A stretch of 64,000 nt of DNA from NCBI GenBank assembly GCA_003132165.1, contig PKWW01000067.1, positions 62,001-126,000 of the forward strand, given 5' to 3'. This document shows, piece after piece, positions 38,636-53,685 of the stretch. The stretch is from Acidimicrobiaceae bacterium (GTDB lineage: Bacteria; Actinomycetota; Acidimicrobiia; Acidimicrobiales; RAAP-2). The translations under genes were made by a program, and so were the position numbers. Each line of letters begins with the position of its first letter. Within the stretch, counting starts at the first letter, position 1. The notes under the pieces are model-generated. The model ran no database searches. It was not told where the DNA came from and saw nothing but the letters and a program-made list of their open reading frames with translations.

Positions 38636-38712
38636 TGGTGCCCCCGGCAGGAGTCGAACCCGCAGCCTGACGGGTAGAAACCGTCTGCTCTATCCAGTTG
38701 AGCTACAGGGGC
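38636..38712 (-). tRNA. tRNA-Arg (TCT)
   Basis: Acceptor GCCCCTG (38712-38706) pairs with CGGGGGC including one G-T pair; the anticodon loop TTTCTAC gives anticodon TCT at 38678-38676; T arm GGGTTCGACTCC; encoded CCA at 38638-38636. Divergent from tRNA-His, 74 bases away. Confidence 0.94.
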
Positions 38713-38747
38713 GCACTTCCATCGTAGTGAACGAAGTCGTCGCTCTC

Positions 38748-38776
38748 TTGGAACGACTTGCTCGTTGTGCCATACT
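38748..38776 (+). promoter_or_regulatory. Promoter of tRNA-His
   Basis: TTGGAA at 38748-38753 and CATACT at 38771-38776 with a 17-base spacer, ending 10 bases before the mature tRNA 5' end. Geometry is that of a housekeeping sigma promoter; assigned by eye. Confidence 0.6.
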
Positions 38777-38786
38777 TGAAACGCTT

Positions 38787-38864
38787 GGTGGGCGTAGCTC
38801 AGTTGGTTAGAGCGCCAGGTTGTGGTCCTGGAGGTCGCGGGTTCGATCCCCGTCGCTCACCCCA
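38787..38864 (+). tRNA. tRNA-His (GTG)
   Basis: Acceptor GTGGGCG (38788-38794) pairs with CGCTCAC (38854-38860) with one G-T pair. The extra G at 38787 faces discriminator C at 38861, the hallmark of histidine tRNA. Anticodon loop TTGTGGT gives GTG. CCA is encoded at 38862-38864. Confidence 0.96.
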
Positions 38865-38982
38865 CGCAGCACCCCTCGCACTGTCCCGTGGCGGCGGTCG
38901 GCTTTGTATAGTCCGCACGACCGATTCTGCGTGACGTGTAGATTTCCACCTGTGGACGCACGCTCGTCCTAAAGGGGGACCA

Positions 38983-40407
38983 ATGTCAATTATTCGTGAT
39001 TCGTTCTACATCAACGGCGAATGGGTGAAGGCCACGTCGGGGGAAACCCTCGAAGTCACGTCGTCGGGTACCGGTGAGCTCTACGCGACCATTCCTGCGG
39101 GCACCGTCGAAGAGGCGAATCAGGCCGTCGAAGCCGCGGCCGCCGCCTTTACTGCGTGGGCCAACACGAGCCCCAAGGAGCGCGGGGAATTTCTCGTGCG
39201 GATCTCAGAGAAGCTCGCCGAGCGCAGCGACGAGATCGCGCTGACCATTGCCAACGAAGTGGGCATGCCATTGATGCTCGCCAAGGGCATCCAGGCCGGC
39301 CTGCCGACGATGACCTTCGCCGACAACGCCAAGCGGGCGGCCGAGTTCACGTGGGAGGAAGAAGTCGGGACCTCGACACTCGTACGCGAGCCCGTCGGCG
39401 TCGTTGCCGCGATCACGCCGTGGAACTACCCGCTGCACCAGATCGCCAACAAGGTCGCCGCGTCACTCGCGGCCGGTTGCACCGTCGTGTTGAAGCCGAG
39501 CGAAGTAGCTCCGGTCAACGCGTTCATCCTCGCCGAGATCATTCACGAGATCGGACTACCCAAGGGCGTCTTCAACTTGGTCACCGGACTCGGTCCCGTA
39601 GTCGGTGAAGCGATCGTCGCACACCCCAAGACTGACATGGTCTCGTTTACCGGTTCGACTCGTGCCGGCAAGCGCGTCATGCAGATTGCGGCCGAGATGG
39701 TCAAGCGCGTCTCGCTCGAACTGGGTGGCAAGTCCGCCAACATCATCCTCGAGGATGCCGATCTCGCCAAGGCCGTTGGGGACGGCGTCTTCAAGTGCTA
39801 CCTCAACTCGGGCCAGACCTGTTCGGCGCTTACCCGTATGGTGGTCCCACGTTCACGTCTCGCTGAAGTCGAGGACCTCGCGGTCGCGGCGGCTTCTGGC
39901 CTGCAGCCCGGCGACCCGATCACCGGCGCCAGCCTGCTCGGTCCGTTGGTCAGTGCCACGCAGCAACAGCGCGTACGCGACTACATCAACAAGGGGATCG
40001 ACGAGGGGGCTCGGATCATCTGCGGCGGTACGGCGGCGCCGGAGGGCCTAGAGCAGGGCTACTACATCCAGCCCACGATCTTCTCTGACGTCACTAATGA
40101 CATGACCATCGCCCAAGAGGAGATCTTCGGGCCAGTCTTGTCAATCATCCCCTACGACACCGAAGATGAGGCGATTGCCATCGCCAACGACTCCGCCTAC
40201 GGACTCGCCGGCGGCGTTTGGGCGGGGACCGACGAGAAGGCCTTTGAAGTCGCCCGAAAGATTCGCACCGGCCAGGTCGAGATCAACGGCGGTGCGTTCA
40301 ATATCCTTGCTCCGTTCGGTGGTTACAAGCAGTCTGGTATCGGCCGCGAACTCGGCCAGTACGGCTTCGAGGAATTCCTCGAAGTGAAGGCCATCCAGCA
40401 CAACTAG
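38983..40407 (+). CDS. Aldehyde dehydrogenase family protein
   Basis: NAD(P)-dependent aldehyde dehydrogenase, 474 residues, ATG at 38983 behind AAAGGGGGA. Motifs: [12 protein letters not shown] (about 142-153), [11 protein letters not shown], general base E246 in [11 protein letters not shown], nucleophile C280 in [22 protein letters not shown] and [15 protein letters not shown]. It belongs to the broad-specificity betaine/aldehyde group. It is monocistronic between tRNA-His and tRNA-Lys, so no pathway can be inferred from neighbours. Confidence 0.93.
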
Positions 40408-40438
40408 TTGCCAAGAGCTCGGCGCGTGACGGTATAGA
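40408..40438 (+). promoter_or_regulatory. Candidate promoter of tRNA-Lys
   Basis: TATAGA at 40433-40438 is a good -10 box nine bases before the tRNA 5' end; TTGCCA at 40408-40413 is the best -35 candidate but the spacer is long (19 bases). The -10 box lies in the loop of the inverted repeat 40421-40451. Confidence 0.5.
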
Positions 40439-40451
40439 CTCGTCACGCGCC
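40421..40451. repeat. Perfect inverted repeat overlapping the tRNA-Lys 5' end
   Basis: Eleven-base arms at 40421-40431 and 40441-40451 are exact reverse complements around a nine-base loop. The right arm includes the first five bases of the tRNA acceptor stem. It could act as a terminator-like hairpin for the preceding aldehyde dehydrogenase mRNA or be part of an integration site. Confidence 0.7.
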
Positions 40452-40522
40452 GGTAGCTCAATTGGCAGAGCATTTGACTCTTAATCAACAGGTTCCGGGT
40501 TCAAGTCCCGGCCGGCGCACCA
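40447..40522 (+). tRNA. tRNA-Lys (CTT), presumptive island insertion site
   Basis: Acceptor GCGCCGG (40447-40453) pairs fully with CCGGCGC (40512-40518). The anticodon loop CTCTTAA gives CTT; the T arm has GGGTTCAAGTCCC; CCA is encoded at 40520-40522. One outer pair of the anticodon stem is mismatched. The gene is intact, and its last 45 bases are repeated 11 kb downstream. Confidence 0.94.
40478..40522 (+). repeat. Left direct repeat (att-like), 3' part of tRNA-Lys
   Basis: Forty-five bases from the anticodon loop to the encoded CCA match 51482-51526 with a single difference, in the acceptor stem. This is the standard signature of an element integrated at a tRNA 3' end: the tRNA is restored at one junction and a tRNA fragment marks the other. 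Confidence 0.85.
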
Positions 40523-40525
40523 AGC

Positions 40526-40550
40526 AAAACCCAAGGGAATAAAGGGTTTT
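40526..40550 (+). terminator. Weak hairpin downstream of tRNA-Lys
   Basis: Seven-base arms AAAACCC (40526-40532) and GGGTTTT (40544-40550) followed by T-rich sequence to 40562. Plausible tRNA terminator; stem is short and loop is 11 bases. Confidence 0.4.
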
Positions 40551-40893
40551 GGTTAGTTTTTTAGTTGGTAAATACTCGCCTTTCACCGCAGTAACCCTCA
40601 TTCTGATTCTCTTCCTCTGAAATGATCAGTAACGACTTCCGTCGACGAGTTGTGGATTTCGCCTCAATCGTCTGAATGTTCGGGCACCAGTTGGTCCTCG
40701 CAGCGCTTATCCGCCAGTAGTTCAAATCAAGAAACGGCTGAGATCATGGAGCGAGTCTTGGCGGACTCGAAAAATCTTTCCTCTAACAAGCCCGCCGAAA
40801 AGGCGAAAAATCGGTGAACCCCATGAGACTTGGTGCTCACATCTTAAGAAGGTCACCGTGTCTGCCAAACGGGGTCAAGGGCACGCCCACCCT

Positions 40894-41553
40894 CTAACCA
40901 CCGAGAGTGACGTCTTGCTCTTGATACCACGCCAGTGCATCGTTGAACTGCTCAATTGAAAAGTCGGGCCACAGCTCGTCGACCACGTAAAAGTCGGCGT
41001 AGATCGACTGGATGGGTAAGAAGCCACTCAGTCGCCGCCCGCCGCCCCAGCGCACGATGAGATCGATCCTCGAGATATCGGCGGACGCGATGCCGTCGGC
41101 GACGTTGTCGCGCTTACTCGCGTCGCCGTTCTTGAGCGAGTGGTTAAGGTCCCAGCTCCAGCCGTAGTTGACGAGGAAGTTGACTTTGATGCGACCCTCA
41201 CCGAATCGGGTTCGTTTCGTGTAACGCAAAAGTTCCTTGGGAAAGAGCGTCGACTCAGTGTTGCCCACCACGAGCAGATCCGCGTCCCTTTTCTCCAACT
41301 CGGCCACGGCTTTCACGCAGGCGTCGCGAAAGGCTTCGATCTGAGCAGCGGGACGTTTCGTATTGTCAACTGTGAAGCCGTAGAAGGTGATCTCAGGAAT
41401 ACCTAGAGCCAGACACTCGTTGTACAACTCCAGACCCGGCTGCAGTCCGAAGTGATAGCCATCCTGTTTTTCGAAGCCTTGACCTTGAGCCCAACGTCGA
41501 TTGCCGTCGGGGATGATGCCCACGTGCTGAGGGAGTCGCTTGGCGTTAGCCAT
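40894..41553 (-). CDS. Divergent cis-prenyl (polyprenyl diphosphate) synthase
   Basis: Member of the UppS family, 219 residues from ATG 41553 behind GAGGAC. The catalytic Asp region IIPDGNRRWA is intact (D16), as are ITFYGFTVDN and NFLVNYGW. The normally invariant R-x-x-GE-x-R-x-SNF block reads RWGGGRRLSGF (168-178), so the Glu that helps bind Mg-diphosphate is G172 and the Asn is G177. The later Glu of AELYF is Asp (D187). It is slightly shorter than housekeeping UppS, lies in the tRNA-flanked island, and is probably a paralogue making a different chain length or substrate. Confidence 0.8.
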   Translation of the reverse strand: MANAKRLPQHVGIIPDGNRRWAQGQGFEKQDGYHFGLQPGLELYNECLALGIPEITFYGFTVDNTKRPAAQIEAFRDACVKAVAELEKRDADLLVVGNTESTLFPKELLRYTKRTRFGEGRIKVNFLVNYGWSWDLNHSLKNGDASKRDNVADGIASADISRIDLIVRWGGGRRLSGFLPIQSIYADFYVVDELWPDFSIEQFNDALAWYQEQDVTLGG

Positions 41554-41902
41554 TGCCGGCGTCCTCAACCACAGTGTCTCTCATAATGAAGTGATTCTAC
41601 TTCACGGCATTGCTCAAGATTCTTTGATTCGAGGTCACTCACTGCCTAACTTCGAGTGTCTCTTGCAAGACCTCGCGGCCACCTTCTTCGCGCCCCACCG
41701 AAGCATTCCTGAATCAACGAATGTCTCTACTACACCTTGCTCAAAGATGGTGAAACAAGTTGGACATCGTGCACGCCGTAAAATGCCTCACTAATCCTCT
41801 TTACGAGTTGCGTCCGCGGGTGTTACGCTCAGGGTTAGGACGTCAAGACCTCGCATCCGTTGTTCCCTGCCAGTTGGTCAGGGAGGCAGAAGAAGGTGTG
41901 AT
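41554..41902. other. Intergenic region, divergent promoters
   Basis: No convincing gene; the open frames here have no RBS or recognisable composition. It separates two divergent genes and so should contain both promoters. It includes the inverted repeat at 41589-41606. Confidence 0.5.
41589..41606. promoter_or_regulatory. Inverted repeat upstream of the prenyl synthase, possible operator
   Basis: Arms TGAAGT and ACTTCA around six bases, 36 bases upstream of the prenyl synthase start. The dyad suits a dimeric regulator; too short to exclude chance. Confidence 0.25.
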
Positions 41903-42166
41903 ATGGGTCTTCCAGGAATGGTGCTCAGCGCTATTGCAGCCGCGGTCGGTGCAATCATGTACTGGGCTGTTTCCTATCAAGGTACGGGATTTCGTCTCTC
42001 GACCGTCGGGGTCATCCTCATGATTGTCGGCGCATTCGGGTTTGTCGTTTCGGCAATCGTCTTTGCGGTGTCGAGAGGGCCCGTGCGTTCCACCGGACAC
42101 TCGATGGATCGTCAGGTGGTCGACTCTCAGGGAAATTCGAGTTCAGTACACGAAGATCGTAAGTAA
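41903..42166 (+). CDS. Small two-helix membrane protein, DUF6458-like
   Basis: An 87-residue protein with two hydrophobic segments (about 5-24 and 35-58) separated by a short polar turn (SYQGTGFRLSTVG), and a polar C-terminal tail rich in Ser, Asp and Arg. The pattern of a first helix, then TVGVILMIVGAFGFVVS, is that of DUF6458-like actinobacterial membrane proteins, of unknown function. ATG at 41903 behind AGAAGGTG. It starts a short plus-strand group of mini genes with the 23-residue peptide and CsbD. Confidence 0.75.
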   Translation: MGLPGMVLSAIAAAVGAIMYWAVSYQGTGFRLSTVGVILMIVGAFGFVVSAIVFAVSRGPVRSTGHSMDRQVVDSQGNSSSVHEDRK

Positions 42167-42278
42167 CGGATTCCCAACTTGCGCATTGTTGTTGGCGATT
42201 GAGCATTTATTATCGCTACTGCCCACTCGACAACCCGCTTGTGATTAATCGAAGTTTTCACAGAAAGGAGTACAAGAA

Positions 42279-42350
42279 ATGTACATAGGAGGCGGAGCAG
42301 TCGTTTTGATTCTCGTCATCGTCCTCATCGTCTTTCTCGTGAGGCGTTGA
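42279..42350 (+). CDS. 23-residue hydrophobic membrane peptide
   Basis: ATG at 42279 behind an excellent RBS (AAAGGAG at 42264-42270, eight bases upstream). The peptide is MYIGGG followed by an uninterrupted Val/Ile/Leu helix and a C-terminal FLVRR. It is too short for ordinary gene finders. The clean RBS, a complete transmembrane helix with positive C-terminal anchor, and the location between two small genes support translation. Comparable glycine-capped hydrophobic peptides occur in actinobacteria, with no known function. Confidence 0.7.
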   Translation: MYIGGGAVVLILVIVLIVFLVRR

Positions 42351-42564
42351 AATCCTGTTGACGGGCAGAGCACAAGTTTCAATACCGATTCCGAGGATGA
42401 GGTTTTAACAACGCTGATGCCGTCCTCAGTCCGGAATTGGGGCTGAATGTCAATCCAACAGGGAGGATGGCCGGTTCTCGCTCACGTTAGAGAAACCGAC
42501 CGGCAAGTTTGGAAATGTGAGAGAGCAAATTACCTCTCTTCGATATATGAGAAACGGAGTGACA

Positions 42565-42738
42565 GTGACCAACAAGGACAAAGCCAACAATATGGGCCAA
42601 GTAGCCAAGGGCAAGGTCAAAGAAGTTGCCGGGAAGACCACTGGCGACAAGAAACTCGAAGCCGGCGGCAAGGCGGACCAGATGAAGGGAAACGTCAAGC
42701 AAGCCGGTGAGAAAGTCAAGGATGCATTCAAGAAGTAG
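42565..42738 (+). CDS. CsbD-family stress protein
   Basis: A 57-residue hydrophilic protein, GTG start at 42565 with GGAG upstream. The composition is rich in Lys, Gly, Ala and Asp, with GQVAKGKVKEVAGKTTGD in the middle and repeated KADQMKGNVKQAGEKVKDAF, the CsbD pattern. CsbD was named as a sigma-B-controlled general stress protein in Bacillus; its molecular role is unknown. The 48 bases read upstream in frame lack family similarity. A perfect hairpin follows its stop. Confidence 0.85.
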   Translation: MTNKDKANNMGQVAKGKVKEVAGKTTGDKKLEAGGKADQMKGNVKQAGEKVKDAFKK

Positions 42739-42774
42739 CACGGATCGGTACGCATCGAGCGCCGAGCAATTCTC

Positions 42775-42814
42775 GTTGACGGGGACCAAGGATAGCCCCT
42801 TGGTCCCCGTCAAC
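42775..42814 (+). terminator. Perfect 17-bp hairpin after csbD-like gene
   Basis: Arms 42775-42791 and 42798-42814 are exact complements around a six-base loop, 36 bases after the CsbD stop. No T-tract follows, so termination strength is uncertain, but the stem is too long for chance. Confidence 0.65.
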
Positions 42815-42874
42815 GGCAACGAACCAACGAGTGTCGATGCGTGCACCAGCGCAGCAAGGTCGTCAGATTGGACG

Positions 42875-43864
42875 GTGTTGCCCTGGGCTCGGGGGCCGCT
42901 CAGCGCTGCGGTGATTTCTGCCCTGCAGCGCCCGCCGGGGACCTTCGGTCCCGCTCCCCCTATCTCAGGAATTGACGCATTGAGCGATGACGATTTTGCG
43001 TTGGCCCTGTATCTTTGTTACGAAGTCCACTACCGCACCGTGACCGACGCAGGCTGGGAGTGGGATCCAGGCCTCCTCACGTTTCGCGCCGAATTAGAGC
43101 GCGCGTTCGTGGAACGGCTCCGTGACGAAGTCGTCGACCCTAGATCTCGGTTTCCCTACGAAGTGATTTCGGCGCTCGACGAATTGATTCGAGCGGCGCC
43201 TGGTCCGTCACTGTCTCGGCATCTCCTCGAGTCGGGGACCTTGGAACAACTCCGCGAGTTTTGCATGCATCGATCGGCATATCAATTGAAGGAGGCCGAC
43301 CCCCATACGTTTGGCATTCCGAGGTTGACTGGCGAAGCTAAGGCCGCCATGGTGGAGATCCAATACGAAGAATACGGATCCGGCGTCGCCTCAGCCATGC
43401 ACTCCCATCTCTTTGGTGAGACAATGGACGCGTTGGGTCTCGACTCTTCCTACGGTTCGTACGTGGAAGTCTTGCCCGGCGTCACGCTCGCCACCGTCAA
43501 TTTAGTTTCAATGTTCGCCCTCCATCGACGGTGGCGCGCCGCCCTCGTTGGGCACCTCGCGGTATTCGAAATGACTTCGGTCGAACCAATGGCGCGTTAC
43601 AGTAGTGCGCTCGCCCGTTTCGGTATTGGTCCAGAGGGTCGGCGCTTCTACGACGTGCACGTAACTGCAGACGAGCGCCACGCGGCAATCGCCCGCGACC
43701 GGATGGTCGCCGGATTGATTCGCGCCGAACCGGAATTGAGTGCGGACTTGTTGTTTGGAGCTGCGGCCGTCTTGATGCTCGAACAACGATTCGCGTCGCA
43801 CCTCCTCGACGCGTGGGCAAATAGCCGTTCGTCTCTTGTCTCACGGGATCAACGTGCACGCTGA
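42875..43864 (+). CDS. Iron-containing redox enzyme family protein
   Basis: Helical protein of the haem-oxygenase-like diiron fold. The metal-binding pattern is visible: ALYLCYEVHYR, MHRSAYQLKEADPHTF, then EIQYEEYGSG and MHSHLFGETM, later GHLAVFEMTS and FYDVHVTADERHA, supplying spaced Glu, His and Asp ligands. Members act on varied substrates as oxygenases or oxidases, and the substrate here is not predictable. The frame is open to 42707, but that part contains the hairpin 42775-42814 and no family similarity. I start at GTG 42875 (329 residues), uncertain. Confidence 0.72.
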   Translation: MLPWARGPLSAAVISALQRPPGTFGPAPPISGIDALSDDDFALALYLCYEVHYRTVTDAGWEWDPGLLTFRAELERAFVERLRDEVVDPRSRFPYEVISALDELIRAAPGPSLSRHLLESGTLEQLREFCMHRSAYQLKEADPHTFGIPRLTGEAKAAMVEIQYEEYGSGVASAMHSHLFGETMDALGLDSSYGSYVEVLPGVTLATVNLVSMFALHRRWRAALVGHLAVFEMTSVEPMARYSSALARFGIGPEGRRFYDVHVTADERHAAIARDRMVAGLIRAEPELSADLLFGAAAVLMLEQRFASHLLDAWANSRSSLVSRDQRAR

Positions 43865-44082
43865 TCAGGCCGACTCTTAATGCTGATGACCACGATGTCA
43901 TCGCTGTGCGCAACAGAGGGAATCTCTTTCTAACAACTTTGCGTTACGTCGGCATTGCACCGATCATTAGAGAGGTTCGAACAGGAAAGTTTGATAGAAC
44001 TTCGTCAGATGCACCCGCGATTCGGTGGACCGTCGTGCGGTGGGCCAATCGTCCACGCTGAAGTCTGTTCTCGTCAGTTCCT

Positions 44083-44943
44083 TCAGGAAGTCACGGTCTC
44101 TCCGGCAATTTTCGCTGGAGCGCCGAATCGCAGTTGGTAACCGCCAAAGGCGATGGAGCAAAGCGCGAACCACGCCCACCCCAGCGCGAGCCCGCCGAGC
44201 ACGTCGGTGAGCCAGTGCACACCGAGCATCACCCGACAACAGGCAATGCCGGTGGCGAGACCGACGGAGAGACCAGCAAGAAGCGCCCGTACCTTTAGGG
44301 AACGCCTTCGACCGATCACCAGAGCAAATGCCGCCAAGCACGCGGCGGCGGCTACGGCGTGGCCGGACGGAAAAGACGAACCGGAGAATCCGGTCAATTG
44401 ATAAAAGTCGGGCCGACCCCGACGTACAATCGATTTGATGACGTTGGCGATAAGGAACTGTCCGCCCACCACGAGGGTGAGGAACGTGATTACTGCGACC
44501 GATCGCTGGCGTATCGTTTCGATGATTGCCACGATGACAGCGATGGGGACGATGACGACGGCGCCTCCGAGCTGAGTATAGATCCGTAAGAACCGAGTCG
44601 AGAGAGCCGTCGCGTGGTGCGCTCCGAACAAACTGGCGCTGCGATCAAGTCGCGCGAATCCAGTGTTGGTGTGGATCATAACGAGCACGATGGCCACCGA
44701 GGCGGCTCCAGCGACGAACAGAATGATGACGGCGCTCAGGAGCAGTCCAGTGGCGGAGTTGGGATCAAGCCGTGTTTGGGTGAAGGCCACCAGGCGCGGG
44801 TGTCGGCGAGCCTCGACCTTGACCTGTTCAACATTTAAGTGAGGGGCGGTCGTAGCGGCTTGGGGCCATCGGTACGCAATCAATCCGGCGGCGAGACCGG
44901 GGATGACGACCGTGAGCAGAGTGATCGAAAGAATCAGCATCAC
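44083..44943 (-). CDS. PAP2-family phosphatase
   Basis: Integral membrane phosphatase of 286 residues with about six helices. All three PAP2 motifs are present: IKSIVRRGRP (about 175-184), SSFPSGH (about 195-201) and CRVMLGVHWLTD (about 244-255), where the usual first Ser is Cys. The last gene of a five-gene operon, five bases after cardiolipin synthase. Substrate could be phosphatidate, undecaprenyl diphosphate or phosphatidylglycerophosphate. The catalytic site faces the outside in such proteins. Confidence 0.87.
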   Translation of the reverse strand: MMLILSITLLTVVIPGLAAGLIAYRWPQAATTAPHLNVEQVKVEARRHPRLVAFTQTRLDPNSATGLLLSAVIILFVAGAASVAIVLVMIHTNTGFARLDRSASLFGAHHATALSTRFLRIYTQLGGAVVIVPIAVIVAIIETIRQRSVAVITFLTLVVGGQFLIANVIKSIVRRGRPDFYQLTGFSGSSFPSGHAVAAAACLAAFALVIGRRRSLKVRALLAGLSVGLATGIACCRVMLGVHWLTDVLGGLALGWAWFALCSIAFGGYQLRFGAPAKIAGETVTS

Positions 44944-44948
44944 GTCAC

Positions 44949-46145
44949 CTACGAGACGCCGCGCAGTGGTGCGACGAGTTGTTCTTTGACGCGTTGGAAC
45001 AGTGAACGCCTCTTCCAGCGACGCGGATCGATTCGGACGCTTCGCTCGAGATCACTTTCGAAGTGGCGATCGAGGGTACGCACGACCGATGGATCAAAGA
45101 TCACCATGTCGATCTCTTCATCGAAGTTGAGGGATCGATTGTTGAAATTCGCCGATCCCACATTGGCGACGTGGCCGTCGACCGTCATGGTCTTGGCGTG
45201 CATCATCGAGGGCTGAAAGTTCCACAATTCGACACCGGACTCAATCAGGTCCTCGTAGTCCACTTCGGCCGCGAGTTGCACGAAACGTTTGTCAGCGAAT
45301 GGCCCGGGGAGAAGGATCTGTACGTGCACCCCGCGGGTTGCCGCGTCACAGAGACGCTTGGTGAGATCGTCGTCGGGAACGAAGTAGGCGGTCGTGACGC
45401 GCAACTGTCGTTGAGCTAACTGCAAGAGCGTCCGAAAAACACTGGCCATATCACTTCCGCCCGTGGCCGACGCGCCGCGCACGCACTGGATCACACTCTG
45501 GCCGGGCGCGTACTGAACTGGAAAACGATCGAATTCGTCGTCAAAGATGACGCGGTCGGTCTCGGACCAATTGTCGAGAAACGCTGCGCGCAGTCCGTCG
45601 ACGGCCGGTCCTTCGACTTTGAAATGGGTGTCGCGCCATTCGCGCTCGTTTCGAGCATCGCCTCTCCAGAGGTCTGAAATACCCACACCACCGGTAAAGG
45701 CGACTGACTCGTCAACCACGAGAATTTTTCGATGAGTTCGGTGGTTGACTTCTCCGAGGCGCATCCGACTCAGAGGACGAAACCATCGCAACTGGACTCC
45801 GGCCTCAATCATGGCGCCGACAAGATGCCTTTCGATCGGTCGCGAGCCCCATGCGTCCAAGAGCACCCGAACACGGACGCCGGCCTTGGCCCGACCACAA
45901 AGAGCCTCGGCTACCTCGGTGCCAATCTGGCCCTTCCAGTAGACAAAGGTGAGAAAGTCGATCGTGTGCTCTGCGCCACGAATGGCGCCGAGCATCGCCG
46001 GAAAGATCTCGCACCCGTTGTGCAAAGTCGTAACGCGATTACCCTCGGTCGCCGGGATTCCCACGACTCCCTCGAGCGTGCGCCTCGATCGGCTGACCTG
46101 TTCGTCCGCAGCCAACTCGGAGCGAAGAGTGTCGTCACTGGTCAT
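44949..46145 (-). CDS. Cardiolipin synthase-like phospholipase D
   Basis: PLD-superfamily enzyme, 398 residues, with two HKD motifs: HRKILVVD (about 134-141) and HAKTMTVD (about 314-321), each followed by the FTGG/GSANFNNRS element. These catalyse transphosphatidylation between two phosphatidylglycerols to cardiolipin, or related head-group exchange. The membrane helices normally at the N-terminus of ClsA are absent, which recalls ClsB/ClsC-type enzymes. Overlaps the YihY gene by 11 bases. Confidence 0.87.
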   Translation of the reverse strand: MTSDDTLRSELAADEQVSRSRRTLEGVVGIPATEGNRVTTLHNGCEIFPAMLGAIRGAEHTIDFLTFVYWKGQIGTEVAEALCGRAKAGVRVRVLLDAWGSRPIERHLVGAMIEAGVQLRWFRPLSRMRLGEVNHRTHRKILVVDESVAFTGGVGISDLWRGDARNEREWRDTHFKVEGPAVDGLRAAFLDNWSETDRVIFDDEFDRFPVQYAPGQSVIQCVRGASATGGSDMASVFRTLLQLAQRQLRVTTAYFVPDDDLTKRLCDAATRGVHVQILLPGPFADKRFVQLAAEVDYEDLIESGVELWNFQPSMMHAKTMTVDGHVANVGSANFNNRSLNFDEEIDMVIFDPSVVRTLDRHFESDLERSVRIDPRRWKRRSLFQRVKEQLVAPLRGVS

Positions 46146-47112
46146 GCGCTACTACCCTTGCTCCAGACGGATCACTCGCGGGATCTGACTCAGTGACCTT
46201 CTGCGCGTCCTGCGGCGCCGGTTCGCCGGTTCTGAGGGCTTCAAGTTGGGCCGCCACGGCGGCGCCGTAAAACAAGGAAATGCTCGACAACAAACTCCAC
46301 ACGAGCAACGCAATGACGCCCGCCAGGGGGCCGTACGTCGCGCCAAAAGAAGAACTTGACCCGTAGAACAGACCTAAGCCGATCGTGGACAACCCCCACA
46401 AGAACACGGAGATCCCGGAGCCGAACGCGAGCCACGACAATCTGGGCTGGCGGCGTCGCGGCGACCAACGGAACAACACGGTGACCGCAATCGCCGTCAA
46501 ACCTAAACCCAGGGGCCAGCGCGCCATTGACCACATCAATGTGAACGCGTGATTGTGGATGGAGAAAAATAGATCCCTGCCAAAGGCCAAGGACACGAAG
46601 GACGCCGCGACGAGCGTGCCGACACTCAGCGCGAAAATCAGCCCAAGTCCGTACTTTTTCAGCGTGGGGCGGTCCTGCTCGACTCCGTAGATGCGATTGA
46701 GCCCGCGTTCGAGTTGGCCCATCGCCGTGGTTCCTACCACGAGCGCGCCAATCACGCCAAAGAGAAGTGCGACGTAGTGATGTCCCGCGGCGACGCGGTG
46801 GGCCTGAGTCACGGCGGTGGTCAGTACGTTGCCGGCCGGTCCGGGAACGGTTCGGCGCACGGTGGCGTCGATCGTCGCGCTGACGCCGCCCTTGTGCAAC
46901 ACGCTCGCGAGTCCGACAATGCCAATCAATCCCTCGATGGCGACGAGCGAGATCATAAATGCCAAGGAACGAGCGTGACTGAAACCATCCGCTACGCGCA
47001 TCCGCTTAAAGGCGTCCTTCGCGAGGCGACCCCAACCGGAACGCTTGAGCACCGCCCACGCGTCGTCACCGGTCAGACCACGAGTCTCGGGAACGAGTGT
47101 GGCGCTACTCAT
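46135..47112 (-). CDS. YihY/BrkB-family inner membrane protein
   Basis: A 325-residue integral membrane protein with about six helices. Family features are FKRMRVADGFSHARSLAFMI near the N-terminus, GTTAMGQLERGLNRIYGVE in the centre and WGLSTIGLGLFYGSSSSFGATYGPLAGVIALLVW (split), ending in FYGAAVAAQLEA. YihY/BrkB proteins were once misnamed RNase BN; transport or lipid-related roles are suspected but not established. Its place between a diacylglycerol kinase and a cardiolipin synthase suggests a lipid-linked job here. It abuts the kinase gene without a gap. Confidence 0.88.
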   Translation of the reverse strand: MSSATLVPETRGLTGDDAWAVLKRSGWGRLAKDAFKRMRVADGFSHARSLAFMISLVAIEGLIGIVGLASVLHKGGVSATIDATVRRTVPGPAGNVLTTAVTQAHRVAAGHHYVALLFGVIGALVVGTTAMGQLERGLNRIYGVEQDRPTLKKYGLGLIFALSVGTLVAASFVSLAFGRDLFFSIHNHAFTLMWSMARWPLGLGLTAIAVTVLFRWSPRRRQPRLSWLAFGSGISVFLWGLSTIGLGLFYGSSSSFGATYGPLAGVIALLVWSLLSSISLFYGAAVAAQLEALRTGEPAPQDAQKVTESDPASDPSGARVVAHDQ

Positions 47113-47997
47113 TCATTCTCCCTTTTTGGGCACGCACACCGTGATCGCACCGGGTTCCACGCTCGCTCGAAACTTCTTCTTTGCCTTTCGGGCGCCCCCG
47201 TCTAGTTCGTACGTCGTGGGGCGATTGAGCTTGATCTCCACTTTGCGTCCTCGGCCCATTTGAGTAAGGGGTGAGTGTTTGGCGTCCTTGACCACCAGTC
47301 GACTGAGCACCCGCGTCCACTGCAGAATGTTGGCCGCCGTGACCACGCCAACCTCAAGCAGCCCGTCATCGGGTTGGGCATCAGGAAACGCAACGATGCC
47401 CGCCGCCAGCGTCCCCATCTGGCCGAGCAAGACGCACGTCGCGTTACCTTTGAACCAAGGTTTCCCGTCGATCTCGATACGGACCTTGCGACTCGTCATG
47501 TGCGTGGCGCGTACACCGGTCCACACGTAGGCCATTCGACCGAAATGACCCTTCAACTCACCGTCGGCGTCGCGCATCGTGATGGCGTCGAAGCCAACGC
47601 CCGCCATGACGGCGAAACGTTCGCCGTTCAAAACCCCGACGTCTAAACGGCGCCGGTCGCCTGAGAGACCAACATCGACGGCCGCGCTCAGATCTATCGG
47701 AACGTGCAAATTATTCGCTAGCAAATTGGCGGTACCCGCTGGCAAGATCGCCAGGTCCACGGCTTCTCCGGCCACGGCGTCGACGCAACGCTGGATCGTG
47801 CCGTCACCACCCCAAACGAAGAGCAAGTCCGCCCCCTCGGCCACGGCTTGACGAGCCCGTTCGGGTGCCAGACGGCTCTTGGATACCTCGTACCAGAGGG
47901 GATCGGGAAAACCCCTCTCGGCCAAGACCTGTCGCAACTCCTCGAGACCGCCGCCCAATGTCTTATTCTTGTGAGCTACAACGGCGACCGACGTCAC
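47113..47997 (-). CDS. Diacylglycerol kinase-family lipid kinase
   Basis: Soluble DagK/YegS-type lipid kinase of 294 residues. The nucleotide-binding signature is LFVWGGDGTIQRCVDAV (about 60-76), followed by LPAGTANLLANNL (about 88-100), and C-terminal LNRPTTYELDGG. It phosphorylates diacylglycerol or a related lipid using ATP. The start overlaps the stop of the PAP2 gene by ATGA. Pairing with PAP2 phosphatases gives opposite reactions in one operon. Confidence 0.88.
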   Translation of the reverse strand: MTSVAVVAHKNKTLGGGLEELRQVLAERGFPDPLWYEVSKSRLAPERARQAVAEGADLLFVWGGDGTIQRCVDAVAGEAVDLAILPAGTANLLANNLHVPIDLSAAVDVGLSGDRRRLDVGVLNGERFAVMAGVGFDAITMRDADGELKGHFGRMAYVWTGVRATHMTSRKVRIEIDGKPWFKGNATCVLLGQMGTLAAGIVAFPDAQPDDGLLEVGVVTAANILQWTRVLSRLVVKDAKHSPLTQMGRGRKVEIKLNRPTTYELDGGARKAKKKFRASVEPGAITVCVPKKGE

Positions 47998-48854
47998 TGC
48001 GACGCCTCGTCCAATTGGCAGTTGTCCGCGGCAGAGGATTGCTTCTCTGCACTATCAGATTTAGTGGAACGATTGACGCCGGCCACTCGAATGATGAAGA
48101 CGCCAGCGAAGAGAGATCCAATACCCAAGAGCAACCCTGCAAGGACGTCTGTCGGGTAGTGCTCTCCGCGGTAGACCCGAGACAAGCCAACGGACACCGC
48201 TAATAAAACAGCGATCGCCCACATCATGATCCCGAGCCACTGCCGCCTTGTCGCCACCGTCACAATCACCGCGATTCCTCCATAGAGAACGACGGTAGCG
48301 GCCGTGTGACCTGACGGGAAGCTGTACGTGGAGGGCGTACCCCCCAAATGACTCACGGCTGGACGAGGCCTTGCAACGATCTTGTTAGCCATTAGGAAGA
48401 CGGAGAGCTCAATGAGCAAACCGGCCACGAGTAGGAACGCGTGTCGCCCCCATCGTCGAAAGAGGAGGACGATAGTGACGACCGCGGCAACGCCGGCTAC
48501 TTCGAACGTATCGGCCATGTTGGTCACGTCGCCGGTGATCCGGTTCCAATCACCGGTGCGATGTCTGTCGAACCACTGACTGACGTGGTGGTCCCACACG
48601 CCTGTCGAACCGTGCTCGAGGACGTGGGTGATAAAGAGACCCAGAGCGACAATGAATGCTCCCATTGCGACGAATGAGGCAATTGTGGCGATCGCGATGG
48701 CAATGACGCCGTGCCCTCGAGCAACATTTTTGACCAGGCGGTGCGCCGGTCCCCCGGTCGACGGATTGAGAAGAGTCCGTCGGCTGTCCATACCATTGTC
48801 GTGCTTCGTGACAATGGAACCTGTGCCCTTCGCGTTCGCGTCGGTCATCGACAC
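47994..48854 (-). CDS. PAP2-family phosphatase, first gene of the lipid operon
   Basis: Membrane phosphatase of 286 residues: long polar N-terminus (about 1-45), then helices. The three motifs are KIVARPRP (about 153-160), SFPSGHTA (about 173-180) and SRVYRGEHYPTDV (about 219-231), all canonical. Together with the second PAP2 at 44083 it flanks the kinase, YihY and cardiolipin synthase genes. The polar tail ends KSDSAEKQSS. Overlap ATGA with the kinase gene shows coupled translation. Specificity is not predictable. Confidence 0.87.
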   Translation of the reverse strand: MSMTDANAKGTGSIVTKHDNGMDSRRTLLNPSTGGPAHRLVKNVARGHGVIAIAIATIASFVAMGAFIVALGLFITHVLEHGSTGVWDHHVSQWFDRHRTGDWNRITGDVTNMADTFEVAGVAAVVTIVLLFRRWGRHAFLLVAGLLIELSVFLMANKIVARPRPAVSHLGGTPSTYSFPSGHTAATVVLYGGIAVIVTVATRRQWLGIMMWAIAVLLAVSVGLSRVYRGEHYPTDVLAGLLLGIGSLFAGVFIIRVAGVNRSTKSDSAEKQSSAADNCQLDEASQ

Positions 48855-49810
48855 TGGCCAAGTTCGAAGTGTGTATAACGTCTGGTCAACAGTCGACGGG
48901 CGTGAACAGGGGTCACTCTTTCAGGGAACATCACGTGACGGGCCCGCGTACGAAGTACGTCAAGCACAATCCGACTGACGACGAGGGCGCACCGTGCCGA
49001 CCTGATCAAACCTTCTGAGACGGTGTCGAAATTCGCGATACGACAACAAGTTGCCAACGTGCAGTCCTCGAGATTTTTCGAAGTAACTGCGCTGACTTCA
49101 AAGTCTATTTCCACTATGCCCCTCGTCGGTAATTCTCCTCTGTCGAATTGGCCATCGGCCAAGATAGAAGGAAACGAGGTCCAAGCGCCTTCAAGAAACA
49201 CTCTAGTGCTCACGCAACTCCTTCAGGGGTGCCCCCAGATGCCCCAGCACTTCATCAACCGACTGTCGTTCGGTACACCGGTGAGATTGATGGCCGAGCC
49301 CGATGAGATTACCCGGGGCGTCCTGCGGCTATTCGACGAAGGCCTAATGAGAACCCGCACGCCGAATGGATAGAAAGAGATGCGCAATGAAGAGGCGATA
49401 TTGAGCTTCAGAACAGTCCCTCAATTTAGGCCTCATATTTCCGCAACACCACGAAACAATACCGACACAGGACAACACGATTCCTTGAAACAAACGACAA
49501 GCGCGACGAGACCGACACACCGCAACCGTTTGGCAGTTCCTTCTAATCCCAAGGCGCCGGGGTCGAGATCCAGGCGCCCACAAACTCCCTACTCAAACCC
49601 TCTTTAATATCTTCCGATTGGCCCGATCAAGCCTATCGCCGAGCGATCCATCGGGACTCGGATCATTTGTAATCCCAGAACGATGCGTGGTCAACAATTC
49701 AGTTGACTTATCTCCGAGGATCCTTCCGCATGGCATGCGGTCGCTATCCGTGTCAAACAGGCATAGCGTTAGATCCTCTTGGACAGTTTCATCGGAGAAT
49801 GTGTAAATCA
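48855..49810. other. Gene-poor, AT-richer stretch in the island
   Basis: No supported gene in 956 bases. Open frames of 116-122 codons on both strands (49023-49373 plus; 48845-49213 minus) have no RBS or family features. The base composition is clearly less GC-rich than the operon to the left. It should hold the promoters of the lipid operon and of the SGNH gene. Possibly decayed genes. Confidence 0.5.
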
Positions 49811-51205
49811 ATGCGCGAGACTACTGGCTCTATCCTGAGAGTTCTCAGACTCGTAGTTGCGTGCGGCCTCTTGGCGACAGTTCCCATGAGTCTCGGCACT
49901 GTCTCGGCTGCGCGCCTGAAAAACAACGTTTCGGCATCGTCTGCATACGTGGCGATTGGAGATTCCTACGCATCGGGCGAAGGCCTGCAGTCGAACACGG
50001 CGACGGACATCTCTCCCTCGAACAATGACGGATGTCATCGAAGCGTGACGGCATATCCCGTCTTGGTGGCGGCGAGCCTCAACGTAGATCTTGGTCAATT
50101 TGATGCGTACGGGTCCGGTGGCTTTGTGGCGTGCTCCGGCGCCACATCCAAGGACATCTTAAAAGGGGAAAACGGCGAGCCGGCCCAACTAGGTGCGCTG
50201 TCGTCAGCTACGCGTTGGGTCACGGTGACTGCCGGAGGCGATGACCTTCATTTTGCAAATGTCCTGCTCGCGTGCTTGGACCTCCGTGCGAGCGTCACAG
50301 TCCATCGGACGACGAGGAGCTACACACAATCAGGCATCGTACGCGAGAGCAAAACGTGTGATGAGTACCTGGCCAGTGCGAACTCTCTTTTCGACGTTAC
50401 GAACGGCACTTCCAAAGAAGCGGCCGCGCTGGAACACGTCTACGAGCAGATCTTTGTTCACGCACCAAATACTGAGCTGGCCGTATTGAACTACCCGAAA
50501 CTGTTCACCGAAAAATCTCCTGAGTTCTGTCCCGTCGCCCCCGGAATCAGTCTGTCCTCAGTATTCAAGGTGCGTTCCGCCCAATTGAACGTTGGCTATT
50601 CAGCGAGTCAAATCTCACAATTCAATCGCGTGGAAAATGAATTGAACGCCGCCATAGCTAGTGCAGTCAGTGAAGTGAGCGCACTGGGACACGATATTCG
50701 ACTGGTTGACGTCAACATTCTCACTAGGGACGAGGCGATTCCCTGCAATCTCGCGACCAACGGGCGATCCGACATGAATGCTCTTCGATATTCTGTGGGT
50801 TCGCCGCTGACGACAATCGTCAAGAACTGTCACCTCGACTTAGCACACCTTCTTTCACTACGGCCCTTCGTTTCGTGTCCCTCGTATGAAGGAGTTGTAT
50901 TCCTGCAGCACATTGTGGCGAACGAAACTTTTCATCCGAAACAGAATGCGCACGAGACGATGGCGCGAGCTGTTGAAGCTCTCTTCAATCAGGTTTCACC
51001 GACAACGACCACACTGAATCCGAATCTCAGCATTACAGGTGATTCAGTGACGACCGTATCGAATCCGAGCGACGCGCCAGTGGAAATCATGGAAACGAAC
51101 TCGGGATCAGGATTGCAGTCGGGACCGAAGCGCGAACTCGTCGGAGTGGATGGAGACAGTGGGCCGAATATGGTTCCTAAAACCACGTGCAATGCACAGC
51201 AGTAA
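49811..51205 (+). CDS. Secreted SGNH-fold hydrolase (GDSL lipase/esterase-like)
   Basis: Secreted 464-residue hydrolase, ATG at 49811. The signal peptide is basic start plus LRLVVACGLLATVPMSLGTV (about 12-31), probable cleavage after VSAA. Block I holds the nucleophile S52 in GDSYASGEG, the oxyanion block is TAGGDDLHFA, and block V near the C-terminus is TFHPKQNAH, with the catalytic His. Eight or so cysteines may form disulfides. A Thr-rich tail (SPTTTTLNPN) follows the domain, then a low-complexity end. The codon use is less GC-biased than core genes, consistent with transfer. Likely a lipid or glycan esterase; substrate unknown. Confidence 0.8.
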   Translation: MRETTGSILRVLRLVVACGLLATVPMSLGTVSAARLKNNVSASSAYVAIGDSYASGEGLQSNTATDISPSNNDGCHRSVTAYPVLVAASLNVDLGQFDAYGSGGFVACSGATSKDILKGENGEPAQLGALSSATRWVTVTAGGDDLHFANVLLACLDLRASVTVHRTTRSYTQSGIVRESKTCDEYLASANSLFDVTNGTSKEAAALEHVYEQIFVHAPNTELAVLNYPKLFTEKSPEFCPVAPGISLSSVFKVRSAQLNVGYSASQISQFNRVENELNAAIASAVSEVSALGHDIRLVDVNILTRDEAIPCNLATNGRSDMNALRYSVGSPLTTIVKNCHLDLAHLLSLRPFVSCPSYEGVVFLQHIVANETFHPKQNAHETMARAVEALFNQVSPTTTTLNPNLSITGDSVTTVSNPSDAPVEIMETNSGSGLQSGPKRELVGVDGDSGPNMVPKTTCNAQQ

Positions 51206-51602
51206 CGACCGATCTTGAAATTGTTCCAAAAGTTCAGTCCCGCCTGGCGAATTCAATCTGACCCGCTCAAACCCATACGTGGCGCTTGGAGGCAACGGTG
51301 AAACGGCGACGCTCGCAGATGCCATTCAACGAATCAGCGTGAAGATTTCCTTCAGAAATCCCACGCTTCATCCCACGGACTAAGCCGACAACATGCAACT
51401 GCGCCGACGTCAGCGGACGACTTTTCTCTTTGTTTAGGACGTTTCCGAGGCGGATAGCCGGCTTCGACGGGCCTTGGCCCTCTCTTAATCAACAGGTTCC
51501 GGGTTCAAGTCCCGGCCCGCGCACCAAAGAAGTGCTGATCAGAGGACTTGTTCGAGTCGCGGAAGTGACAGGAGTTAAGCCGATGTCATCAATTTGTCAA
51601 CA
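51206..51602. other. Right edge of the island, non-coding
   Basis: No supported gene. It contains the tRNA-Lys fragment at 51482-51526. The short open frames here show no RBS or recognisable product. Confidence 0.5.
51482..51526 (+). repeat. Right direct repeat (att-like), tRNA-Lys 3' fragment
   Basis: Matches 40478-40522 in 44 of 45 positions, including the T arm and the encoded CCA; the single difference is in the acceptor stem. Upstream sequence shows no D arm or 5' acceptor, so this is a fragment, not a tRNA gene. Confidence 0.88.
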
Positions 51603-51839
51603 ATGACCGAAGAGAAGCCCCCCTCTGCGTATCTCGACCCGATGAGTCCGCTGCTTGCTTTGATCGTGCGCGGAGCGCTCGAGGGTTACCAATCTGGCGA
51701 AGTTGACGTCGAAGATGCGATTCCCCACACTGCCCTGAACGGATGGTACGAGGGTCACATTGAGGGCGAAGAGTGCGGGGGCTGCCCGAAGAATCCCGAC
51801 GACGAAGACCGAAAGTATCTGCGCCAGTATCCGGGTTAA
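51603..51839 (+). CDS. Small acidic hypothetical protein
   Basis: A 78-residue frame from ATG 51603 (or TTG 51594 with nine more bases). It is acidic and contains LLALIVRGALEGYQSGEVD and then HIEGEECGGCPKNPDDEDRKY, where a CGGC motif resembles a metal or thiol site. No RBS is obvious. The amphipathic first part and the dense acidic end look like real coding sequence, but I recognise no family. It converges on the ferritin-like gene 102 bases later. Confidence 0.5.
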   Translation: MTEEKPPSAYLDPMSPLLALIVRGALEGYQSGEVDVEDAIPHTALNGWYEGHIEGEECGGCPKNPDDEDRKYLRQYPG

Positions 51840-51941
51840 TCAAGTTAGGCAACCCTCAATCGAGCAGACTCGCCGACAGCGCTGCCCCACCTTCCTCGCC
51901 CATGCGAAGGCGATCTTGGAGCTGACGCTTGCGATGACCGA

Positions 51942-52223
51942 TCAAGCGATAGGACCTTCGCCACCCAGGAACTTATCCAATTGGGTAGCGAACTCGGCGA
52001 CATTCCGCCGCAACCATTCGACCAGCATCGCAGCATGCTCCATTTCGTCGTTCATATTGTGAACAATGACTGCTTTGAGCTGAGCGTCGTCGCAGTCGTC
52101 AGCCCGTTGTCGATACCAGTCGATTGCCTGCAACTCCTCCATCAATGAGACAATCGCTTGGTGCGTGGCAATCGTCTGATCCGTCAGACGCTCTCGCGGC
52201 GCGTGTAGGTCTTCGCTGGACAT
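51942..52223 (-). CDS. Encapsulated-ferritin-like protein (EncFtn), no targeting tail
   Basis: A 93-residue two-helix protein closely resembling encapsulated ferritins: TIATHQAIVSLMEELQAIDWY (split), then HNMNDEMEHAAMLVEWLRR. The ferroxidase ligands known for the Rhodospirillum rubrum protein align with E30, E60 and H63. EncFtn forms a ring of dimers that oxidises Fe(II) inside an encapsulin shell. The sequence ends at GGEGPIA immediately after the domain, with no C-terminal encapsulin-targeting peptide, and no encapsulin gene is in the window. Start: ATG 52223 (a GTG six bases upstream is possible). Confidence 0.85.
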   Translation of the reverse strand: MSSEDLHAPRERLTDQTIATHQAIVSLMEELQAIDWYRQRADDCDDAQLKAVIVHNMNDEMEHAAMLVEWLRRNVAEFATQLDKFLGGEGPIA

Positions 52224-52319
52224 GGTCACCTGCTTCTAACTCTGAAGGCAAATTGCTTCCGTCGGAATCATACGGCTCCGCCGAGCGACAGGCAAGAATT
52301 ACCCGTGCCGCGTACAGAC

Positions 52320-53062
52320 TCATAACGAGGTTCCCCAGCCAAAGTAGACGCTGGGTGAAGCAGACTTCGCTACTTGGAGCAATGCTAATTCGTACTTGAC
52401 GGGACTGATGTTGCCAATCGTGGTGCAGCGCCGCTTGGTGTTGTACCAGTTGATATACCGCTCGATGCCGGCGCGCAGCTCATCCATGTTGGCAAAGACG
52501 TGACGGTAGAAGTACTCGTGTTTGAAGATCGACCAGAAACTTTCTGCGCTGGCGTGCTCGTAACACGTTCGCGTGCTGCCCAGGGAGCGAACGATCTTGA
52601 GGTGCACACAACGCTCCTTGATCTCGCGGTCACTGAACTGACTGCCACGGTCGGTGTGAAGTTTGGTGTCCGACACGAGGCCGCGACGCGTGCGCACGGA
52701 CTGACCTAACGCCTCAAGCACGATCTCGGTGCGCATGTGGTCTTGGACCGAGTAGCCGAGTACTCGACTCGAGCACTCATCGCGAATGGCACACAGGAGG
52801 CGCCGCCGCTCCCAATTGTCATATACGTGATATCCGAGCTCCACAACGCATCCAGCGTCTCTTGCTTGAAGTGACGCCGCGCCAGGTCGGGTGGGTAGGT
52901 GGCGCTCGGGTCCGGCACCATGGTCACCTTGAACAGCCGGGGACTCACGCCAACGATCCCCAGGGACCTCATGTGGGCGGCCACCGTGTTGTGACTGACC
53001 ATGTCGCCAGTCTCGTGCAGTTCGCAACTTGGAATGACTTCGATAGTGAGCCGTATTGGCAC
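52320..53062 (-). pseudogene. IS3-family transposase (OrfB) remnant, frameshifted
   Basis: Two overlapping frames encode consecutive pieces of one DDE transposase. The upstream piece (to about 52815) has SHNTVAAHMRSLGIVGVSP and LDALWSSDITYM with the first catalytic Asp. The downstream piece (from about 52825 to 52320) continues with LLCAIRDECSSRVLGYSV, the second Asp in LHTDRGSQFSD, the Glu in ASAESFWSIFKHEYFY and the end RRCTTIGNISPVKYE. Joining them requires one frameshift near 52810-52825. The N-terminal part of OrfB and all of OrfA are missing, so the element is dead. Terminal repeats could not be identified. Confidence 0.8.
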
Positions 53063-53186
53063 GCGTCAGTCGTCGCTTCGGTGCTTGAACGGTTCCCCGA
53101 CCTAACGGTCCTCGACGGGATTACGATCTAACTCATCGTCGCTGGGCGCAAGTGACGCCGACTTGCTAAGCGATTCCACTTGGAAC

Positions 53187-53222
53187 CGCCCCCGAAAACT
53201 GTGGCGCGTTTTGCAGGGGGCG
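53187..53222. repeat. Imperfect inverted repeat near the IS remnant
   Basis: Arms CGCCCCCGAAAAC (53187-53199) and its complement with a two-base insertion (53208-53222). May be an old IS end or a terminator; T-rich sequence follows on the right. Confidence 0.35.
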
Positions 53223-53290
53223 AAACATTTTCTTCTCATTGAAAATCACCATGCCAGCGCCAGACGATCCCTTCGGGTAATTCTCCTCGG

Positions 53291-53668: not shown

Positions 53669-53685
53669 ATTCCTTCATTCCCGCT

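Follow-up and report, generated by a model that had tools for sequence, protein, structure and literature searches.

Introduction

In the Islander abstract, a genomic island targeted to a tRNA gene is defined as one with the intact tRNA at one end and a displaced 3' fragment at the other. A more elaborate case is the flexible island fGI-2 of 'Ca. Methylopumilus', in which repeats of the end of tRNA-Lys(ctt) recur and enclose variable content of 330 bp to 42 kb, as described in the accessible part of PMC10872708. Here we describe a comparable locus in a stretch of 64,000 nucleotides, called the window throughout, from the genome of an Acidimicrobiaceae bacterium (GenBank assembly GCA_003132165.1, contig PKWW01000067.1, positions 62,001 to 126,000 of the forward strand). 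We consider it probable that tandem islands lacking an integrase gene were added one after another at tRNA-Lys(CTT) of this genome, giving rise to an accretion array whose members were moved in trans.

Several described systems share part of these properties, and the comparisons below are limited to the accessible parts of the cited papers. The locus resembles fGI-2 in the isoacceptor tRNA-Lys(ctt), the repeated gene end and the variable segments, whereas the fGI-2 repeat consists of the last 20 bases, that text mentions no arm repeats, and a second tRNA-Lys is also used here (PMC10872708). The ssrA islands of Dehalococcoides are likewise tandem, bounded by repeats of an RNA gene 3' end and variable in number among strains, and some of them lack integration genes and have been proposed to be cis-mobilizable; they differ in having a serine recombinase, an ssrA target and a 20-bp repeat, and 16 of them retain the integration module, whereas no tyrosine integrase is seen in 55 of 58 segments here (PMC3146451). 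Cis-mobilizable elements (CIMEs) have lost their integration genes, kept their attachment (att) sites and become tandem by accretion, but are remnants of integrative and conjugative (ICE) or integrative and mobilizable (IME) elements, while movement in trans according to arm type is proposed here (PMC5704250). Tycheposons, which are tRNA-bounded cargo elements with adaptive genes, contain a tyrosine recombinase, unlike most of the present segments (PMC10872708, PMC11389934). In the additive tRNA islands of Alteromonas, cassettes are added at a conserved tRNA and length depends on the strain, but neither arm families nor an integrase acting in trans are described in the accessible text (PMC4119200). 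Lastly, integrons and clusters of attC sites lacking integrases (CALINs) also form cassette arrays, some of which rely on an integrase located elsewhere; as far as examined, they differ in the type of site and of integrase (PMC11389934, PMC4119200).

Set against these descriptions, the first segment of the window has no integration gene, as in CIMEs, and hence not the tyrosine recombinase of its own that tycheposons carry and that tRNA-targeted islands have inside the element; of its attachment functions, the core copies and the right arm are present and the left arm was not found. The arrays are best read as a variant of additive islands and cis-mobilizable elements. What seems new is that segments without an integrase bear readable arm families, which match the arms beside integrases, at two tRNA-Lys genes. 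Our literature search, whose reach left out most subscription journals, listed no paper that deals with tRNA-Lys arrays of Acidimicrobiaceae or with arm repeats spaced 12 bp apart in islands lacking an integrase.

The tRNA-Lys(CTT) locus of the window

The genome of the window, designated G000, comprises 71 contigs and 2,306,565 bases, and positions given without a contig are window coordinates. The array is delimited by the following features:

40447–40522, plus strand: intact tRNA-Lys(CTT), left boundary of the array (ARAGORN)
40523–51481, no strand: first array segment, 10,959 bp, GC 0.570, without a tyrosine integrase (PF00589 and an HMM built here), no left arm detected
51355–51481, plus strand: right-end arm, attP-like, about 127 bp
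51358–51377, plus strand: direct repeat ATCCCACG, two copies (51358, 51370) with a spacing of 12 bp, proposed arm-type integrase sites
51482–51526, plus strand: displaced tRNA-Lys 3' half, 44 of 45 bases identical, junction with the next element (repeat search)
51527–51881, plus strand: left end of the second element, containing TTTGTCAACAATGA, which resembles the TGTCAAC arm family
63120–63551, minus strand: conserved flank gene, cluster 3, in 22 fetched genomes
63554–63856, minus strand: conserved flank gene, cluster 15, in 12 fetched genomes, ClpS-like by eye

The repeated core lies at 40478–40522 within the tRNA gene, the homology beginning at the first base of the anticodon loop, and the two halves form the longest direct-repeat family in 38,000–56,000 (extended repeat 40478/51482: 46 nt, 98%, spacing 11,004). 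An intact tRNA at one end and a displaced 3' fragment at the other are thus present at 40447–51526. With up to three mismatches, the half is found at three places in the 71 contigs, namely 40478, 51482 and C68:691–735, and its reversed control pattern at none. ARAGORN calls no tRNA at either displaced copy.

An initial annotation, made from the sequence alone, had proposed an 11-kb island between the tRNA and 51526, and much of it stands: the last 45 bases of the tRNA do recur with one mismatch in the acceptor stem, the second copy is without a 5' half, and the mismatch (CCGGCGC in the 3' acceptor strand of the tRNA, CCCGCGC in the copy) is uncompensated, as it breaks one pair with the 5' strand GCGCCGG. 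Decay of the right end or a donor with a different stem had been offered as its cause; half copies commonly bear single changes, and drift of the displaced copy is the best reading of this one. The accessory, AT-richer character of the content is borne out by a GC of 0.570 in 40523–51481 against 0.620 in 1–40446, and the compositional check suggested for 40–52 kb gave a raised tetranucleotide distance, which is 0.23–0.31 in five and 0.19 in one of six 4-kb windows within 40–54 kb, and 0.11–0.21 elsewhere.

Insertion at the tRNA 3' end agrees with the empty site of a relative, G068, in which a terminator-like stretch comes directly after the tRNA and a cluster 3 homologue starts 31 bp downstream. 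The latter opens a run of genes (clusters 3, 15, 9, 11, 1, 4 and 7) that recurs in other genomes. In the window, the homologues of the first two genes lie at 63120–63551 (56% identity) and 63554–63856 (67%), and because they reappear only at 63,120, the flexible region is 40523–63119, about 22.6 kb. On the other side of the tRNA, the aldehyde dehydrogenase gene at 38983–40407 has a protein identity of 88–94% to its ten best listed relatives, and genes of its cluster stand directly upstream of the tRNA in most genomes showing that side. The chromosome does not resume at 51526, the edge originally proposed, because the sequence that follows is a recurrent element left end: 51482–51881 is 79.9% identical to G041:C43:6735–7127, and the sequence 3' of 51526 recurs in G012 and G041, where it stands behind half copies, as well as behind the tRNA in G010, with a looser match. 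The far end of this second element was not found. The comparison with sister genomes that had been suggested did reveal an uninterrupted tRNA-Lys, in G068, but one continuing with the genes of 63,120–63,856 and not with the sequence after 51526, the flexible stretch reaching to about 63,119. The earlier interpretation is thus partly supported, being right in kind and too small in extent.

Half copies and arm repeats across the genus

The main comparison covered 61 genomes of the genus, that of the window included, drawn evenly from a larger group. The CTT half, with at most three mismatches, has at least one match in 53 of them, which may be the full tRNA, and at least two in 19, with a maximum of ten (G040 10, G051 8, G041 7, G062 6, G008 5, G035 4). 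The genus has recurrent half copies whose homology sets in at tRNA position 32 or close to it; at times they are closely spaced, as in G008:C113 at 13484, 14607, 16314 and 18738; among 12 order-level relatives, no match starting near position 32 appeared at the threshold used. The half of tRNA-Lys(TTT) gives at least one match in 48 and at least two in 24 of the 61 genomes, up to ten, and one CTT half stands among the TTT halves of G062 (C19:404731). The window genome carries the full tRNA-Lys(TTT) on C20 and TTT half copies on C1, C15, C21, C46, C53 and C55; the first bases deviate in the copies on C15, C46 and C53, and contig C21 begins inside a half. The TTT halves at C55:19111, C55:22078 and C1:208 show a changed, compensated T stem, CTGGG/CCCAG versus CCGGG/CCCGG in the host tRNA on C20, which suggests elements from donors with another tRNA-Lys.

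In the fetched contigs, 58 segments are bounded by consecutive sites on one contig. They extend from 724 bp to 45.6 kb (median 3.96 kb, 12 below 2 kb) and, as in additive flexible islands, are variable segments at one tRNA site that differ between relatives. Beyond the 61 genomes, the exact 43-base half pattern occurs in 88 stretches of genome_contigs, of which the 80 listed come mostly from metagenome-assembled genomes labelled Acidimicrobiaceae or Actinomycetes, with a few labelled otherwise; isolate names with palsa, bog or fen are frequent among the matches listed. A phage origin of the site was considered and set aside. The viral_contigs search covered the core and the AGGCCTCAT and AACACCACA arm patterns; the 43-base core had no exact match and the AGGCCTCAT pattern none, and the two matches of the AACACCACA pattern, which lie inside listed ORFs with no half site at up to 14 mismatches, were judged to be due to chance.

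Conservation 5' of the half copies extends over about 125 bases and contains a direct repeat with a spacing of exactly 12. At CTT half sites, a repeat of at least 6 bp with this spacing at positions −150 to −95 is found in 48 of 61 sites (the 61 include G012:C78, possibly a full tRNA that N masks) against 1.4 expected, the expectation deriving from 174 windows starting 300, 400 and 500 bases upstream and only sites with a complete window being counted; no other spacing rises above 8. The TTT half sites serve as a replicate, with 31 of 43 against 1.07 expected from 121 control windows. The ATCCCACG pair of the window is the only match there at up to two mismatches, where 0.01 is expected, and an identical pair accompanies the TTT half at C1:208 of the same genome. 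The right-arm units fall into families, which include AGGCCTCAT, AACACCACA, AATCCCAC, ACATCCCTCA, ATCCCTAA, TGTCAAC and TGTAGCCA, among others, and the units AGGCCTCAT, ATCCCAC and ATCCCTAA occur at both types of tRNA-Lys. Left ends display a weaker excess: repeats of 7 bp or more with a spacing of 12 occur in 13 of 171 sites, against 1.8 expected.

Integrases of the genus

Tyrosine integrases are scarce within the arrays. In the chosen fetched contigs, an HMM built from 17 hits and applied to stop-to-stop frames of at least 40 aa found none in 55 of the 58 segments, including all 25 that run from CTT to CTT, and detected an integrase in the other three; in 40523–51481, neither this HMM nor PF00589 had a match. 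Where integrase genes do occur, they follow a tRNA-Lys directly in G066 (CTT) and in G062, G063 and G041 (TTT; that of G041 is cut by the contig end), or follow half copies in G057 and on C21 of the window genome, while G040:C7 has the same left end as G062 and stops before any integrase could show. Among nine genomes scanned, PF00589 matches lie in or adjoining tRNA-Lys arrays on G066:C39, G057:C116, G040:C22, G062:C19, G063:C27 and G041:C5, and those on C3, C21, C26 and C35 of G051 are at least 16 kb from their tRNA-Lys sites. A second integrase family, read towards the tRNA, is present beside TTT sites in G071, G039 and G058, with arms that carry TGTCTAGCCA or TGTAGCCA.

The left arms beside integrases are located 41–56 bases past the tRNA end, and their repeats are spaced 11 or 12. 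Their units are ATCCCTAA in G062 and G063, CCCTAA in G041, TCCCAC on C21 of the window genome and ACCACAC in G066, which has ACCACA in common with the AACACCACA family. For four of five types, a count given without a chance estimate, the left-arm unit equals, or overlaps by at least 6 bases, a right-arm unit on other segments. Integrases at other tRNA genes of the genus (L144, L148, L149, L150 and L152) also have 12-bp-spaced repeats just 5' of the integrase gene, and the arm layout is therefore not restricted to tRNA-Lys.

The window genome has five Pfam integrase matches. We take those at C63:64039 and C16:34520 to be Xer-type; C21 holds two more, and the match on C68 is partial. The C21 protein, of 380 aa, matches the Phage_integrase, SAM-like and central domains and is 43–62% identical to the four relatives aligned; R204, R321, H344 and Y354, common to all five, are presumably catalytic, as judged from the family. 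Directly 3' of its gene, C21:1263–2677 holds an AbiEi-like antitoxin-type gene and a further frame. The absence of a visible integrase, as first reported, is accordingly true of the 11 kb and not of the genome, and the dilemma of mobility either lost or supplied from outside is narrowed by the intact ATCCCACG pair in the right arm and by a C21 integrase with TCCCAC arm repeats in the same genome.

Recent movement of cargo

The middle of the first segment holds a group of genes, of which the differences to G041 at third codon positions are given where available:

44083–44943, minus strand: PAP2 phosphatase, within the stretch recently shared with G041 (0.112)
44949–46145, minus strand: phospholipase D or cardiolipin-synthase-like protein (0.053)
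46135–47112, minus strand: YihY/BrkB membrane protein (0.043)
47113–47997, minus strand: YegS/diacylglycerol-kinase-like lipid kinase
47994–48854, minus strand: second PAP2 phosphatase (0.199)

The 3.1-kb stretch 44064–47136, with the first PAP2, phospholipase D and YihY genes, is 96.0% identical to G041:C46, and a second piece, 47846–48978, is 87.1% identical to G041:C48. With alignments of up to 250 bases dropped, the flanks reach 80.8% on the left (8,972 bases, excluding the block running into the tRNA), 84.9% in that aldehyde dehydrogenase–tRNA block (1,896 bases) and 81.6% on the right (2,890 bases). Similarly, third-codon differences are 0.112, 0.053 and 0.043 in three cargo genes versus 0.39, 0.34 and 0.50 in three flank genes. 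Because the cargo is 96.0% and the flanks 81–85% identical, we conclude that this part of the cargo moved recently and is, on these divergences, much younger than the split between the species of the window and that of G041. Another shared stretch is a 3,045-bp segment of G071, 98% of which recurs in G015 with 93.5% identity. If C46 and C48 are neighbours in G041, as we infer, the operon would lie behind a TGTCAAC-type arm there and behind a ATCCCACG-type arm in the window, and cargo may then change its backbone too.

Proposed mechanism and alternatives

These observations give good support to a tyrosine recombinase having integrated DNA at the anticodon loop, with accretion afterwards. In the mechanism that we propose, each element would carry the tRNA 3' half from the anticodon loop on and an arm of about 125 bp at its far end. 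The recombinase would join the element core to that of the tRNA, or to a half copy already there, with the crossover probably in the 7-base anticodon loop; the half brought by the element would restore the tRNA, and the old half would be displaced outward behind the arm of the element, so that repeated rounds would leave a string of half copies. Most segments, in which no recombinase gene is seen, keep the arm, whose two direct repeats spaced 12 bp apart would be bound by the N-terminal part of the recombinase. The recombinases of the few fuller elements at tRNA-Lys(CTT) or (TTT), having matching arm units, would most likely move the others in trans, and that of C21 may serve the element of the window. 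Since arms are kept, units match and cargo was recently shared, movement in trans appears the simplest account of the segments without an integrase. Part of the shuffling may be due to homologous recombination between halves.

A number of observations weigh against this account. The genomes are fragmented and many contigs end at the tRNA-Lys repeats, which leaves counts and neighbourhoods incomplete. No left arm was found in the window's own segment, where the unit may be fused or decayed, and left and right units within a segment agree only weakly (14 of 38; shuffle mean 7.9, maximum 15), an agreement that we do not take as proof; unit matches between arms, moreover, are reported without a chance expectation. 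The G057 unit TTTTGGGAAC has no partner among the right arms seen, and no integrase for AGGCCTCAT, the commonest arm type, was identified in the genomes compared. The C21 integrase has relatives of nearly full length and at least 43% identity in 9 of the 61 genomes, with fragments in three more (G067, G071 and G072), and G040, G051, G008 and G035, all rich in half copies, have only relatives of 28–36%. C21 itself starts inside a tRNA-Lys(TTT) half, of which the contig holds only the last 16 bases; the loop of the TTT type, CTTTTAA, is one base apart from the CTT loop, CTCTTAA, and the C21 arm repeats are spaced 11, not 12. As to cargo, both aligned island pieces together are 93.6% identical to G041 over 4,210 bases, and the second PAP2 stretch, at 87.1%, indicates that the island did not move recently as a whole.

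An extension of the proposed mechanism, which we advance tentatively, is a cassette platform with two loci, in which phage-type integrases at tRNA-Lys(TTT) or (CTT) would act in trans on a stock of cassettes without an integrase.

The most serious competing explanation, in our view rather unlikely, is that segments are gained and lost by homologous recombination between the 45-base halves, with no integrase active now. One genome often has several halves that agree in all 45 bases, and the frequent disagreement of left and right arm units in a segment is what shuffling predicts; yet neither the first insertion and the start at the anticodon loop, nor the conserved pair of 12-bp-spaced repeats about 125 bp outside the core, would be explained by it. 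We give less credence to the reading of the region as one ordinary tRNA island, now fixed and without the integrase that it once had, which would fit one full tRNA and one displaced half with no integrase between them, the altered second copy and the missing left arm. However, a second element begins at 51482, both arm repeats are intact, some of the cargo has moved recently and many genomes of the genus show the same pattern. That the 51482 copy arose by ancestral duplication or decay of a tRNA gene, or as an assembly artefact, could be suspected from its mismatch and from the 71 contigs of the genome, but is highly improbable given the common-type arm that replaces the missing 5' half, the identical layout in many separate genomes and the existence of an empty site. 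A true integron with attC-type cassettes, brought to mind by the small segments (12 of 58 under 2 kb), mostly without an integrase in the array, and by the integrase beside tRNA-Lys(TTT) in some genomes, can scarcely be credited, as the repeated site consists of an arm and a tRNA half and C21, the sole integrase scanned, has phage-type and SAM-like domains (no dedicated attC or IntI model was run).

Other cargo and the outer part of the flexible region

The remaining genes of the flexible region are:

40894–41568, minus strand: cis-prenyltransferase (UppS-like)
42517–42738, plus strand: CsbD-like protein
42707–43864, plus strand: haem-oxygenase-like iron enzyme (PF14518)
49703–51205, plus strand: GDSL-like hydrolase, Pfam score just under the cut-off
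51594–51839, plus strand: 81-aa ORF of the second element, without a Pfam match
51942–52229, minus strand: encapsulin-associated ferritin-like (EncFtn) protein
52320–53062, minus strand: transposase remnant, with an rve integrase core at 52320–53027 and an overlapping second frame to 53062
53291–63119, no strand: older variable insert with DUF779, aldehyde and alcohol dehydrogenases, a glycosyltransferase, an acetyltransferase and others

The cargo of the window segment is mostly related to membrane lipids, with the CsbD-like and haem-oxygenase-like proteins in addition; the genes of these two are also paired in G017:C38. Just 3' of the CsbD gene is a perfect inverted repeat of 18 bases with a 6-base loop (42774–42815). 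It falls within the beginning of the haem-oxygenase-like gene as called, and the called start, 42707, may be too early. Defence was considered as a function: among 10 proteins scanned, only the phospholipase D protein matches PADLOC models (15 of 16 hits DrmC, one MkoB), and since it scores far better as a cardiolipin synthase, yet under the cut-off for that enzyme, no defence system is claimed. Further out, several genes of 53291–63119 are present in some fetched relatives only, such as G017, G041, G063 and G035, and this stretch is probably an older layer.

Elsewhere in the genus, 10 array proteins sampled from G062, G063, G035 and G041 include MFS and FtsX-type transporters, Nramp, GGDEF/EAL, a glycosidase, a luciferase-like enzyme, Fic and a transposase. 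The third CTT half of the window genome, at C68:691–735, has a AGGCCTCAT-type arm, and the Nramp-family gene found there shares 88% identity with a gene of a G041 array. On G062:C14, five related proteins of 835–853 aa (3369–5909, 41467–44028, 46478–49015, 49211–51718 and 51932–54475) are encoded within the array and past it. The only one of them scanned is an FtsX-type permease, and relatives occur in G046, G051 and G071.

Significance

Tandem tRNA islands are known, and the persistence and movement of their members without an integrase have so far been mostly inferred. Here the proposed integrase sites are directly readable and fall into families, several of which match the arms beside integrases, and this opens the question to a simple binding and recombination test. 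In fragmented environmental genomes, whose contigs often break at these repeats, the arms and halves also provide a rule for locating candidate helper enzymes and the borders of segments. If the platform with two loci were true, the arm repeat would specify the integrase and the tRNA half the place, allowing several compatible sets per genome, and the work of an integron would be carried out by unrelated parts across the whole genus.

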